From Oceanospirillales bacterium (GTDB taxonomy: Bacteria > Pseudomonadota > Gammaproteobacteria > Xanthomonadales > SZUA-38), in the NCBI GenBank assembly GCA_003233095.1, contig QIKT01000200.1:1-45284 (forward strand): a stretch of DNA of 45,284 nucleotides, given 5' to 3'. Both the position numbers and the translations under genes were made by a program. Positions within the stretch are counted from its first letter, which is position 1, and every line of letters starts with the position of its first letter. Positions 4,559-45,284 of the stretch are shown here, piece after piece. The notes below the pieces were generated by a model. That model worked only from the letters and a program-made list of their open reading frames with translations, ran no database searches and was not told where the DNA came from.

Positions 4559-5430
4559 CCGGCGAGTCGATCAGCCAGCGTCTGGCCCAGATCACTTGGA
4601 GAGCGAACCGTGCTGACACCCGCACTGTTGAGCGCCTCGAACTTGGCTTCTGCAGTGCCCATGCCGCCTGCGATAATCGCACCAGCATGGCCCATGCGCT
4701 TGCCAGGAGGTGCCGTCACGCCGGCAATATAGGCAACGACAGGCTTGTCCACATATTGATCGATGAACTCGGCTGCTTCCTCTTCGGCCGTGCCACCAAT
4801 CTCGCCGACCATGATGATGCCATCGGTCGCTGGATCGTCCTGGAACAGCTTCAGGCAATCGATGAAGTTCATGCCGTGAATCGGGTCTCCACCAATGCCA
4901 ATGCAGGTGCTCTGCCCGAGGCCAACCATGGTGGTCTGATGAACCGCCTCATAGGTCAACGTGCCAGAACGCGAGACAATGCCGACCCGCCCAGGCTGAT
5001 GAATACGACCCGGCATGATGCCAATCTTGCACTCGCCCGGTGTGATGATGCCTGGGCAGTTTGGCCCGATCAGCACGGTATCTTCCATCTCTTCCAGTAC
5101 GGCCTTGACTCGCATCATGTCCATGACCGGAATGCCTTCGGTAATGCAGACAATGACCGAAACTCCAGCATCGGCTGCTTCCAGAATGGCATCTGCAGCA
5201 AATGGCGGTGGCACGTAAATCATGCTGGCATCAGCACCGGTCTGATCGACCGCTTCTTCAACCGTGTTGTAAACCGGTCGGTCCAGATGAGATTCACCGC
5301 CTTTGCCTGGCGTCACCCCAGCAACCAGCTGTGTCCCGTAGGCAATCGCCTGCTCGGAATGGAAAGTCCCCTGTGAGCCGGTAATGCCCTGACAGATGAC
5401 CTTGGTGTCCTTGTTGATCAATACGCTCAT
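4555..5430 (-). CDS. sucD: Succinyl-CoA synthetase (ADP-forming), alpha subunit
   Basis: The alpha subunit of the TCA-cycle enzyme that interconverts succinyl-CoA and succinate with substrate-level phosphorylation. At 291 residues it has standard length. The N-terminal CoA-binding Rossmann region has [11 protein letters not shown]. The phospho-histidine site is [14 protein letters not shown], with His248 the expected phosphorylated residue. [12 protein letters not shown] and [10 protein letters not shown] are also family signatures. AAGGGA lies before the ATG and sucC ends 11 bp upstream. Its stop overlaps the possible start of nadE. Confidence 0.97.
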
Positions 5431-40897: not shown

Positions 40898-41241
40898 AAG
40901 TGTGAGTCGGCCGATAAGCCGGGTTCTGTCGTGGACAGCCATTCATCTGGGGCAGCTGTCGCCAGCGGCCTCGTGCGACCAACCCGGGAACCTTGCGGGC
41001 CGCAAGATAGTTCCCCTATTTGGTCTTGCTCCGGGTGGGGTTTACAATACCATCTGAATTACTCCAGACGCGGTGCGCTCTTACCGCACCATTTCACCCT
41101 TACCAGCGCGAACGCTGGCGGTATCTTTTCTGTTGCACTTGCCGTGGGCTCGCGCCCCCCAGGCGTTACCTGGCACCCTGCCCTATGGAGCCCGGACTTT
41201 CCTCCTCGCCGAAACGAAGCGACTGCCTGGCCGACTCACAG
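40898..41241 (-). ncRNA. rnpB: RNase P RNA
   Basis: Catalytic RNA of ribonuclease P, about 344 nt, bacterial type A. The minus strand shows GAGGAAAGTCCGGGCTCC near the 5' side, GGTAAGGGTGAAA in the middle, and ACAGAACCCGGCTTATCGGCC near the 3' side. Helix P1 is a perfect 12-bp pair between 41240-41229 and 40912-40901 (TGTGAGTCGGCC/GGCCGACTCACA). Ends are estimated from P1. It sits between rsmI and mraZ on the same strand. The 157 bp between its 3' end and the dcw promoter show no clear T-run terminator. Confidence 0.96.
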
Positions 41242-41257
41242 GCGCAACAGTGACCGA

Positions 41258-42127
41258 TCACTGATCTTTTTTCAATCCCTGCAGCACGCTGTAACACTGT
41301 TTTTTATGCAATCCTGTATGACGCGCAACAAGACTGGCCAAGCGACTGTCCGGTAACTGACCGGCAAACAGCTCGAGCAAGGCTCTGGCCGAGCTCAGAC
41401 ATTCGTCCTCACTGTCGCCCTCACAGCCTTCAATCACGAGGACAAATTCACCTCGGGCAGGGATCCGGCCGCTGGCGAGTTCCTCGCCCAGTGAGCCCAG
41501 CGAATCAAATACGTACTGCTCATGCCGCTTGGTCATTTCGCGGGCAATCAGCGCACGGCGATCAGGACCGATAATCTCCTGCATGTCCTCCAGAACTGCA
41601 ACAATCCGATGACTGGACTCATAAAACACCTGGGTCTGCGCACAACTGACAAGGTCAGCGAGACGTGATTGCCTGGCCGTTTGCGCGGCAGGCAAGAACC
41701 CTCTGAAAACGAAGGCATCGGTGGCCATTCCACTGACCGACAGTGCGGCAACCGCTGCACAGGCACCGGGAATCGGTATCACCGTGACACCTGCCTCACG
41801 AGCCTGACGGACCAGCGGGTAGCCCGGATCGCTGATCAGCGGCGTTCCGGCATCAGAAATCAGCGCGACTGATTCGCCTCGCTGGAGTCGTTCGATCAGC
41901 ACACTGCTGCGATGGTGTTCATTGTGCTGGTGCAATGATTCACGATGCGTCCGAATATCATGGAACTGGCACAGCCTGGCACTGTGACGGGTATCCTCCG
42001 CCGCAATCAAATCCACCTGTTGCAACACCTCGATAGCTCGTTGAGACAAGTCGGACCGATGGCCAATCGGAGTGGCCACAATGTACAAAGTGCCAGAGTG
42101 GTCTTGCCCAGGTGAATCTGTGTTCAT
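41258..42127 (-). CDS. rsmI: 16S rRNA (cytidine(1402)-2'-O)-methyltransferase RsmI
   Basis: SAM-dependent tetrapyrrole-methylase-fold enzyme that 2'-O-methylates 16S C1402. Its 289 residues begin with GTLYIVATPIGHRSDLSQRA and include LIAAEDTRHSARL, ALISDAGTPLISDPGYPLV, VIPIPGACAAVAALSVSG and YESSHRI. It is divergent from lpoA, as in many gammaproteobacteria. Its stop lies 16 bp upstream of rnpB on the same strand. Confidence 0.97.
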   Translation of the reverse strand: MNTDSPGQDHSGTLYIVATPIGHRSDLSQRAIEVLQQVDLIAAEDTRHSARLCQFHDIRTHRESLHQHNEHHRSSVLIERLQRGESVALISDAGTPLISDPGYPLVRQAREAGVTVIPIPGACAAVAALSVSGMATDAFVFRGFLPAAQTARQSRLADLVSCAQTQVFYESSHRIVAVLEDMQEIIGPDRRALIAREMTKRHEQYVFDSLGSLGEELASGRIPARGEFVLVIEGCEGDSEDECLSSARALLELFAGQLPDSRLASLVARHTGLHKKQCYSVLQGLKKDQ

Positions 42128-42176: not shown

Positions 42177-42343
42177 CTAGGAGCCTGTCAGACTTGACCG
42201 ATCGTCGCGAGGGAAAGCCGATTTGAGTCAGATTTTTGGATCTTTTGAGGCAAATAGCACTGCTATTTAACGAAAAAGATCCAAAAATCTGACCAAACTC
42301 GAATTTTCCGCAGGTGATCATGTTAAGTCCGACAGGCTCCTAG
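42177..42343. repeat. Palindromic miniature element (167 bp), complete copy
   Basis: Terminal inverted repeats of 22 bp begin CTAGGAGCCTGTCAGACTTG (42177) and mirror at 42322-42343 with few mismatches. A perfect 20-bp inner repeat (42227-42246 with 42274-42293) and a 7-bp AAATAGC/GCTATTT hairpin with a 3-nt loop form the centre, so almost the whole unit can fold on itself. The CTAG at both outer ends could be a 4-bp target duplication. No ORF. It fills most of the divergent rsmI-lpoA gap and ends 24 bp before the lpoA ATG. A second copy starts at 45191. Confidence 0.88.
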
Positions 42344-42367
42344 CCGCTTGTGACACGAGAATTCGAG

Positions 42368-44206
42368 ATGAAATATCCTGCGATCATTGCCATGCTATTG
42401 CTGATCTGCGCCTGTGGCACCACCCAACGCCAGCAATCCACAGGGAACAGCGGAGCAGGTGCGCTGACCGGCGCCGAGCAATCATATCAGAGTGGACGGT
42501 ATCGGGAGGCCGAACGCCAGTTCCTGGCGCGGGCAGAGCGTGATCCAGACGGCCGCGACCATTGGGTACTGATGGCGGCCGATGCGGCCTGGCAAGCGGG
42601 GTTCCCGTTCAAGGCAGGCGATCATCTCACGGACATCAATCCCGAGCGACTCAACGACCAGGATGCGGCCCTGTCTCGTCTGTTATCGGTGCTGATCTTT
42701 CCCGAGCGTTTTTCCGAGCTGAACGTCTTGGAAATGCTGTCCGGACCGACAGATCAATGGCCGACTCGGTATCAGGAACAGCTGCTGCTCAAGAAGGCTC
42801 AATCCTTCTCGTTGACTGCCCGCCATCTGGATGCAGCCCGTGCGCTGATCGAACGAGGTGACCTTCTGACTGATCCTCAGGTCGCCTCCGCAAATCGCCA
42901 GATGATCCTTGAAACGCTAACCCAGGTGCCCTCCGAGAAGGCCGAGCAAGCGATGCTTGGACTCGCGCCTCGTAACCCCTTGTTTGGCTGGCTGAAGCTG
43001 ATCGTCGATGTCAAGACACGGCTGTTTGAAAACGGTCAGATCAGGCTCGTTGTGGCGGCCTGGCAAGAACAATTTCCGAATCACCCTGCCAATCTTGAAG
43101 CGGTCCAGACCATTCTTCAAAATTATCGTCTGGCCGACGGCCTGGCGCGCCGAATTGCCGTCATCCTGCCAACCAGTGGCCGTCTGGCTGCACCATCACG
43201 CGCCATACGAGATGGATTGCTGAGCGCCTACTACCAACAGTCCGAACGAATCTCCAGCCTGACTTTCTATGACAGTGGATCCAATGACGAGCAGTTGATC
43301 GATGCCTATCAGCGAGCAGTCGTCGAGGGCGCGGAGCAGATCATTGGTCCACTGGAGCGACGCGCAGTCAACACCTTGATGGCCAATGCACGGCCAGAAA
43401 TACCCATTCTGGCGCTGAATTTCAGCGACCAGCCCAACAAGTCAAACTGGCTGCATTTCGAGTTCGGCCTGTCCCCCGAGCAAGAAGCGGCCGAGATGGC
43501 CGAACGGATGCTCGCAGATGGCATCTTCCGGGCGGTCTTGCTGATCCCCGAATCCGACTATGGCGAGCGGCAGGAAGCGGCATTCATTGATCGATTCATG
43601 ACCCTGGGTGGCCACATCATTGGACGCTATCGATATCCGCTCAAGCAAAATGATTACAGCGATTTACTTCGGGAAGTGACCGGTATCAACGAGGCCACCA
43701 GTCGCTATCGAAGACTGGCCGGCATGATTGGCAGTGCCATGGAGTTCGAACCTCAGCACCGAATTGATACCGATGCCGTGGTCCTGATTGCCAACCCCGA
43801 GCATGGCTATCTGATTCGCCCACAGCTGGCATTTCACAACCTCGGAGATTTGCCCTTGTATGCGACCTCAGCGATCTACAAGGGCTATCCTGAACCACGC
43901 AGCGACAAGGATCTGGATGGCATCCGCCTGTGTGATGCCCCACTGGTCTTCGCGCTGGCTGCCGCCGACAGGGACGGCAGCATCGAGGTGCCCTCATTAT
44001 GGTCTGACTCACCCTTGATTCGACTGTTTGCCATCGGACAGGATGCGATCAGAGTGTTGCCGTACCTGAGGTGGCTGCGAGGCACTGGCTCGGAATCATT
44101 CCCTGGCTACACCGGGTATCTTAAGGTAGACGCCGATGGTCGAATCCGCCGACAACTCGAGTGCGGACGGTTTCGCAATGGACGGTTGATCTCTACGAGT
44201 CCATGA
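42368..44206 (+). CDS. lpoA: Penicillin-binding protein activator LpoA
   Basis: Outer-membrane lipoprotein that activates PBP1A from outside the peptidoglycan. With the ATG at 42368 it has 612 residues; six more codons to a GTG at 42350 are open. The signal MKYPAIIAMLLLICAC gives Cys16 as lipidated residue, with an unusual Cys at -2. An N-terminal TPR-like helical domain (about 25-250) precedes a periplasmic-binding-protein-like C-terminal domain starting RRIAVILPTSGRLAAPSRAIRDGLLSAYY. It continues with IIGPLERRAVNTL, SAIYKGYPEPRSDKDLDGI and a final GYTGYLKVDADGRIRRQLECGRFRNG. It leads a unit with yraN and dolP. Confidence 0.93.
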   Translation: MKYPAIIAMLLLICACGTTQRQQSTGNSGAGALTGAEQSYQSGRYREAERQFLARAERDPDGRDHWVLMAADAAWQAGFPFKAGDHLTDINPERLNDQDAALSRLLSVLIFPERFSELNVLEMLSGPTDQWPTRYQEQLLLKKAQSFSLTARHLDAARALIERGDLLTDPQVASANRQMILETLTQVPSEKAEQAMLGLAPRNPLFGWLKLIVDVKTRLFENGQIRLVVAAWQEQFPNHPANLEAVQTILQNYRLADGLARRIAVILPTSGRLAAPSRAIRDGLLSAYYQQSERISSLTFYDSGSNDEQLIDAYQRAVVEGAEQIIGPLERRAVNTLMANARPEIPILALNFSDQPNKSNWLHFEFGLSPEQEAAEMAERMLADGIFRAVLLIPESDYGERQEAAFIDRFMTLGGHIIGRYRYPLKQNDYSDLLREVTGINEATSRYRRLAGMIGSAMEFEPQHRIDTDAVVLIANPEHGYLIRPQLAFHNLGDLPLYATSAIYKGYPEPRSDKDLDGIRLCDAPLVFALAAADRDGSIEVPSLWSDSPLIRLFAIGQDAIRVLPYLRWLRGTGSESFPGYTGYLKVDADGRIRRQLECGRFRNGRLISTSP

Positions 44207-45190: not shown

Positions 45191-45284
45191 CTAGGGAGCC
45201 TGTCGGACTTGACCGATCAACGCGAGGGAAAGCCGATTTGAGTCATATTTTTGGATCTTTTGAGGCGAATAGCACCGCTATGTC
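45191..45284 (+). repeat. Palindromic miniature element, second copy (cut by window end)
   Basis: From CTAGGGAGCCTGTCGGACTT at 45191 the sequence follows the copy at 42177 with only scattered substitutions and one extra G near the end. It runs through the GGATCTTTTGAGG region and the central AGCACCGCTAT hairpin. It has the same orientation. The right half is outside the window. Confidence 0.88.

Follow-up and report, generated by a model that had tools for sequence, protein, structure and literature searches.

The palindrome and its neighbourhood

The window (the whole stretch of DNA that was analysed, 45,284 nt) carries at 42177-42343 a nearly complete palindrome of 167 nt, set between two divergent genes. 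The left one, presumably rsmI-like, starts at 42127 on the minus strand, 49 bp from the palindrome; the right one, presumably LpoA-like, has its ATG at 42368 on the plus strand, 24 bp away, and a GTG at 42350. These names, like that of a MraZ-like gene, come from our reading of the ORFs and not from a family scan. An RNase P RNA is located between the rsmI-like and MraZ-like genes; it is the only match of an Rfam 15 scan of the window at the gathering score, in which the palindrome gave none. A 65-aa ORF overlapping the palindrome is taken as a chance frame.

In what follows G000 is the genome of the window, other G numbers are other genomes, L numbers are fetched loci and C numbers are contigs. 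A1 and A3 are alignments of the element and R1 is a model built from A1. The features are:

40899-41238, minus strand: RNase P RNA, bacterial class A (Rfam match, 342 bits)
41258-42127, minus strand: rsmI-like ORF (ORF list, named by reading of the translation)
42177-42343, plus strand: complete copy of a miniature inverted-repeat element (MITE), both CTAGs included (repeats, fold)
42177-42180, unstranded: left target tetranucleotide CTAG (read from the sequence)
42181-42198, plus strand: left terminal inverted repeat GAGCCTGTCAGACTTGAC (repeat search, comparison with IS ends)
42203-42211, plus strand: proximal internal loop, 5' arm CGTCGCGAG (A3 columns 28, 33 and 34 near-invariant)
42244-42273, plus strand: apical part, with TTTGAGGCAAATAG, the apical loop and CTATTTAACGA (columns 74, 76, 98, 100 and 101 strongly conserved)
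42309-42317, plus strand: proximal internal loop, 3' arm CGCAGGTGA (A3 columns 138-140 near-invariant)
42322-42339, minus strand: right terminal inverted repeat, GAGCCTGTCGGACTTAAC in minus-strand reading (repeat search, comparison with IS ends)
42340-42343, unstranded: right target tetranucleotide CTAG (read from the sequence)
42350/42368-44206, plus strand: LpoA-like ORF (ORF list, named by reading of the translation)
45192-45284, plus strand: second copy, which ends at the contig end after 93 nt (R1 match, 65.8 bits)

The first-pass annotation had described a near-complete palindrome with symmetrically nested repeats and CTAG at both ends between divergent genes, and all of this was recovered. 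The terminal repeats (42177-42198 and 42322-42343, 22 nt each) are complementary at 91%; the inner 20-bp pair (42227-42246 and 42274-42293) has no mismatch; the core AAATAGC/GCTATTT (42252-42258 and 42262-42268) encloses a loop of 3 nt. As RNA the window copy folds at -93.9 kcal/mol, against a mean of -38.67 for shuffled sequences (z -13.95), and 0 of 200 shuffles folded as well. Its plus strand is the one with the conserved motifs and the better fold. The commonest forms of the proximal loop in the family are CGTAGCGAG for the 5' arm and CGCAGTAGA for the 3' arm.

Copies, ends and target of the element

Copies were counted genome-wide, as the first-pass annotation had proposed. By sequence search at least 40 places were scored in G000 (129 candidates), i.e. 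the window copy and 39 others with an identity of 83-93%. With R1 (E up to 1e-3) at least 136 matches, counted over both strands, correspond to at least 88 distinct places (150 of 810 candidates scored), which represents at least about 30 places per Mb and at least 0.5% of the genome. The window copy has the top R1 score in G000 (177.6 bits) and is itself among the sequences used to build the model. A1 comprises 29 elements collected by sequence alone; R1 was built while five of its rows (L035, L039, L067, L071 and L087) stood in the wrong orientation, and the scans of G000, class and phylum were run with R1 in that form. In G000 the exact end motif AGCCTGTCGGACTTRA has 107 occurrences and its reversed control none (over all 398 genomes of the order the control has 3); for a looser motif and its control the figures are 268 and 44. 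The exact motif is present in 21 of the 398 genomes of the order.

In the class sample of 369 genomes R1 matches 86, from 69 of 272 genera, and in the phylum sample of 398 it matches 48, from 18 of 213 genera; the other 283 and 350 genomes respectively have no match. Among the 48, 41 lie outside the class, 39 of them in a single family (f217). Seven candidates were scored per genome in these two scans, so that the copy numbers are not true counts. Every one of the matches listed spans model positions 1-167, with lengths of 165-169 bp in the class sample and 162-175 bp in the phylum sample. By blastn with the window copy, one of 72,556 plasmid records holds a copy, pMPC6-328K of Pseudomonas sp. 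MPC6; three other copies used as queries found the same single record, one of them in part only, and a fifth query, from G188, found no match among the 72,556. No element was detected at E up to 1e-3 in 51 viral loci picked for end-like 16-mers, and viral contigs were rejected as a source. Thus, within what was searchable, the family is mostly chromosomal.

Several other observations concern the copies and their surroundings. Some contigs of G000 (e.g. C212 and C166) start inside a copy; this, like the copy broken at the contig end at 45192-45284, is as expected of repeats, which stop assembly. Short forms of about 90-95 bp occur in L046, at G000:C19:10694-10780 and G000:C34:3111-3197, and in L243 between lpoA and yraN; the two that were read in sequence (L046 and L243) keep the ends and the proximal loop motif with the apical part absent, and the two G000 pairs are known from end spacing only. 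On the right flank of three G000 copies (L013, L022 and L026), directly or a few bases away, lies GGAGCCTCTGAACAAGT, apparently the end of another repeat family with the same first bases. A separate repeat of about 30 bp adjoins the element at L198:1075-1103; it recurs at several places in G599 and has a single match in G473.

When viral contigs were scanned, the end motif was found at 28 loci, of which only L106 has two facing ends at the distance of an IS (about 1.5 kb). Its ends, CTAG CAGCCTGTCGGACT (read as CCTAGCAGCCTGTCGGACT..AGTCCGACAGGCTGCTAGG), enclose a 454-aa reading frame that scores 363 bits with NF033551 (IS1182 family; cut-off 270), and 64, 24 and 23 bits with the IS5 models, whose cut-offs are 140, 110 and 275. 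The transposase, which the first-pass annotation had supposed to be of IS5 type, must therefore be assigned to the IS1182 family, and an IS5-family MITE was rejected. IS1182-family ISs with CTAG-SAGYCTGTCGGACTT ends are found on this viral contig, on plasmids and, intact, in G701. Five of six plasmid relatives fetched, including ISAzo2, carry ends of this kind, each flanked by CTAG; in the sixth, L147, a scripted search found no such ends. In G701, contig C24 carries a 465-aa frame without stop between the ends CTAGCAGCCTGTCGGGCTT and AAGTCCGACAGGCTGCTAG, and the same genome contains four identical copies of the MITE, each flanked by CTAG on both sides, and three further copies with 1, 1 and 4 differences. 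Between the MITE ends (GAGGCTGTCGG..) and the IS ends (CAGCCTGTCGG..) of this genome there are about 2 mismatches in 19-20 bases.

Comparison of the MITEs (window, G701 copies) with the ISs (G701, L106) shows that the terminal 18-23 bp agree at 83-95%, and blastn found no longer similarity between MITE and IS. The window left end is 85-89% identical to the ends of both ISs over 18-23 bp, CTAG included; the right end is 95% identical to one end of each over 22 bp, CTAG included, the mismatch being the first base (C for G). The search for an IS with the ends of the palindrome, suggested in the first-pass annotation, was thus successful as to CTAG-flanked ISs of the IS1182 family, whose ends are similar but not identical. 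Together with the many copies and the CTAG ends, they support its view of a non-autonomous miniature element.

Thirty of the 86 genomes with elements were scanned for IS1182 transposases; 20 gave some match and 3 a match above the cut-off, and at the 16 loci examined from these 30 the right ends surround an IS1182 transposase in G701 only. The two other transposases above the cut-off have other ends or none that were found, and at four further loci a single exact 12-mer of this end type is present, perhaps belonging to a MITE. G000 contains no intact matching transposase, only one weak match of 45 residues; DDE_Tnp_1 (PF01609) has four partial matches there, one of them at a locus (L097) with a short element of about 77 bp, and no IS with these ends was found at the four loci, at a tolerance of up to 5 mismatches. 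The partial matches of G027 and G016 were rejected as ends of an autonomous IS; they are truncated or short copies of the element, and no transposase was recognised in the ORF lists of L032 and L048-L050. REP/REPIN elements moved by RAYT were also rejected, with 0 matches to PF01797 (Y1 transposase) in G000, a genome about 93% complete.

Three end types, GTCGGACTT, GTCCGAGAATAG and TTAGTGCCTGACCGAGAAAG, occur on similar bodies. GTCGGACTT matches the IS1182 ISs found here, and TTAGTGCCTGACCGAGAAAG resembles the ends TAATTAGTGCCCGTCCGGAAA around an IS1182-like frame in G471. For the second type (GTCCGAGAATAG, CGAGAATAG) no IS was found, 0 of 23 viral loci having two facing ends. The ends may switch by transposase type. 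In G717 (one contig) the IS1182 model finds 54 matches, among them a row of 302-aa frames with equal scores, and there is one IS with CTAGCAGGCTGCTGAAAAAC ends; thus CTAG flanks occur with other IS1182 end types too.

Outside G000, 72 copies have CTAG on the left in 51 cases, on the right in 49 and on both sides in 39. The left and right tetranucleotides are identical in 40, where independence predicts 35.2 (134 of 5000 shuffles reached 40), in a set that is not itself independent, the four identical G701 copies being counted separately. For 38 G000 copies the corresponding values are 17, 14 and 6, with identity in 7 versus 9.0 expected. These counts exclude L002 for G000, since it lies at a contig end, and L205 for the others, since it is the same place as L176. 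The G000 copies look older and worn, and no duplication is visible there. In their outer tetranucleotides CTAG is often changed to CCAG or CTGG, more rarely to other forms; this T-to-C and A-to-G bias might reflect very-short-patch repair.

For ISPsy36, another member of the IS1182 family, PMC8027508 reports GGCC repeats, again a palindromic tetranucleotide target, and for ISPsy32 it gives CTAG; PMC3281130 lists the IS1182 member ISPse1 with a "4", which we read as a 4-bp duplication.

Several loci bear on target and mobility. In L086 one copy is nested inside another. The 32-nt apical segment of the outer copy reaches the length found in three others only when one of the CTAGs is assigned to it; duplication of CTAG would explain this, and duplication of the TA within it just as well. 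Without its insert the outer copy measures 190 nt, versus 158-161 for others measured in the same way; being about 30 nt too long, it carries a further change, and only its apical segment supports a duplication. Between lpoA and yraN, G701 has a copy where its congener G599 has none, although the gap differs otherwise too and the comparison is not base-exact; in G473 the gap holds a different short element with other ends. Two relatives (L051 and L052) have no room for an element, since their rsmI match, beginning at 5001, and the divergent frame of 593 aa, beginning at 5005, overlap or touch. On pMPC6-328K the copy adjoins an IS1182-like stretch, one CTAG being common to both. The first-pass annotation had asked for empty sites in relatives, and considered that their lack, or the lack of any IS with these ends, would contradict mobility; neither is the case, since G599 is empty and matching ISs exist.

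The element is thus short, non-coding and dispersed, with terminal inverted repeats and presence/absence at an orthologous site. It is a mobile MITE with IS1182-like ends and CTAG flanks.

Conserved fold and strand preference

The covariation of the fold, which the first-pass annotation had missed, was followed in both alignments. In A1, 87.8% of the cells are paired versus 77.2% in shuffles, and two-sided changes occur in 43 of 69 pairs versus 27.3. A3 comprises 52 elements in the right orientation, 29 of them class loci that were fetched as best R1 matches and so lean towards structure. There 92.5% of the cells are paired (78.5% in shuffles), two-sided changes occur in 59 of 69 pairs (34.1) and the covariation score is 0.425 (0.168), none of the 500 shuffles reaching any of these three values. 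A control in which the pairing partners were slid is stronger than shuffles, because related rows can exceed shuffles without structure; it gave 34-51% of paired cells and covariation scores up to 0.156. In eight genera of A3 (G552, G527, G661, G506, G703, G728, G752 and G671) one helix is replaced, as judged by eye, and still pairs. Thus the fold covaries across the class and the ends vary in at least three types.

Unpaired inner columns 28, 33, 34, 74, 76 and 138-140 are near-invariant in the 52 elements and the others are free. On average the unpaired inner columns are not more conserved (1.07 bits) than the paired ones (1.13). Rfam gave 0 matches at the gathering score in 20 loci carrying the element; sub-threshold matches, the best to two miRNA precursor families, were read as chance.

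The two strands are not equivalent. The plus strand folds better in 52 of 52 elements (mean -95.9 versus -77.7), which suggests selection on a single strand, probably as RNA. The paired cells include 342 G-T (GU) versus 51 A-C, with a reference structure from one plus-strand fold, which favours G-T. With Watson-Crick-only reference pairs common to the folds of both strands the sums are 9848 and 3969, a GT:AC ratio of 2.5; slid partners already give ratios of 1.1-2.1, so that the GU excess is partly compositional. These data point to a single-stranded form of one strand, of which RNA would be the simplest reading, short of proof.

With respect to genes (simple longest-ORF caller, both genes within 400 bp, i.e. 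28 of 39 loci in G000 and 58 of 72 elsewhere), the orientations -+, ++, +- and -- were counted 8, 6, 6 and 8 times in G000 and 14, 13, 13 and 18 times elsewhere, with no preference for one orientation or for convergent genes. Among the 3' ends of neighbouring genes, 94 in all, 25 reach 4 nt into the element, where they fall on the TAG of CTAG, and another 7 reach 21 nt into it, where the terminal repeat provides a stop triplet. A stop codon can be left or supplied by insertion.

Origin of the fold and relation to known elements

In kind the family belongs with the MITEs, among which ERIC, Correia and RUP are comparable. ERIC/IRU are likewise intergenic palindromic MITEs with tens to hundreds of enterobacterial copies (PMC2229807, PMC10969869), and the former paper describes ERIC as about 127 bp long with TA termini; by description and length we would set it apart. 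The present family further differs from ERIC/IRU in that an IS family with matching ends was found and in that its fold covaries across many families. According to these two papers RUP is a MITE with terminal inverted repeats resembling an IS (IS630-Spn1) and Correia/NEMIS a MITE whose hairpins are processed by RNase III; both have TA termini, another transposase family and other hosts. Coxiella QMITE2 (PMC5896051) is similar in length (150-190 bp), strong fold and frequent position at gene 3' ends, and differs by variable direct repeats of 7-11 nt, a GTAG REP and its targeting by IS1111. The IS1182-family ISs themselves (ISAzo2 and relatives) share with the MITE the terminal 15-19 bp and CTAG on both sides, with a transposase of NF033551, but they are coding, and the two measured are 1,539 and 1,594 bp long. 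IS1272, a member of the same family that acts on hairpins, leaves no duplication and removes its target hairpin (PMC5678879), whereas here CTAG stands on both sides. No description of the present element was found in open-licence papers, subscription papers and ISfinder being outside the search. At least one of six short motifs of the family occurs in 42 papers, and the titles of 15 of these look unrelated.

We consider it probable that these copies form an old MITE family that moves by an IS1182 transposase acting in trans, inserts at CTAG and keeps its interior as a folded strand, most likely RNA. The terminal repeats would be the recognition ends, bound by an IS1182-family DDE transposase supplied in trans; insertion would take place into the palindromic tetranucleotide CTAG, which would thereby be duplicated and stand on both sides. 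The body of about 167 bp, nearly fixed in length, would have to fold for the element to persist. We take the interior to be retained as a single folded strand because the helices change on both sides, some internal-loop bases are near-constant and the G-U pairs are on one strand. As to the role of the fold, we infer that the element itself needs the rod in cis, either for its insertion to be tolerated or to be mobilised, and that the rod would not be a host gene.

The main rivals are correction from arm to arm and a role of the hairpin as DNA in transposition. Long quasi-palindromes are known to undergo template switching between their arms in replication, and such correction would keep the arms complementary, and give covariation, without selection or function. 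It would account for the GAG/CAG and GTCGGACTT/GTCCGAGAAT end variants, which outside G000 mostly alter both arms together; but it would also erase internal mismatches, yet the asymmetric loop columns are near-invariant in the 52 elements, G-U pairs are retained on one strand, and several G000 copies have unlike arms at the GAG/CAG position, so that we hold this explanation to be improbable. A rod that acts as DNA is a better candidate, though still an unlikely one: IS1182-type transposases would recognise extruded or single-stranded hairpins, a proposal made for IS1272, for synapsis or targeting, with no part for RNA. The element ends do meet at the foot of the stem, and IS1272 targets and replaces inverted repeats (PMC5678879). 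However, the preference for one strand is not expected of a cruciform, and the ISs of L106, G701 and the plasmids are coding and have matching ends of 15-19 bp, hence they do not need the hairpin body.

The same replacement of stem-loops by IS1272 (PMC5678879) could make the palindrome an immobile landing site, replaced by an IS1182 element, and the copy of pMPC6-328K that shares its CTAG with an IS1182-like stretch would fit. This is very improbable, being already contradicted by the identical copies at four sites of G701, the empty site of G599 and the copy within a copy in L086, which show that the element itself moves. A terminator or mRNA-stability element under host selection, with spread as a by-product, would agree with the very stable hairpin and with the 25 of 94 gene 3' ends on the TAG of CTAG. 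Since copies have no preferred orientation to genes, a fixed-direction terminator role is unlikely, and a terminator role was rejected; there is moreover no preference for convergent genes, and the window copy has no T-run terminator. We therefore give quite little credence to host selection of this kind.

Within the reading of an IS1182-mobilised MITE with a folded interior, we tentatively envisage a mobile structured RNA, a narrower proposal that is possible without being favoured. The plus-strand rod would bind a partner through its loops, the ends would switch among IS1182-type transposases, and the element would persist across families. The loops CGTAGCGAG/CGCAGTAGA and GAGGCGAATAG/CTATTTAACGA might bind a conserved partner, either the transposase or a host factor, and retention of the RNA body while the ends change could explain the persistence across many proteobacterial families.

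Bacterial MITEs are usually regarded as decayed remnants of ISs with a passive interior. What is new here is a covarying fold in the interior of a MITE of nearly fixed length, with whole helices replaced in some genera; if the proposed explanation is true, a bacterial MITE would have a selected structured body, which is open to testing. A likely partner transposase family is supplied for a widespread repeat, which R1 detects in the sampled genomes. The IS1182 family, for which action on palindromes is known (PMC5678879), is also offered as a system in which to ask whether hairpins take part in DDE transposition.
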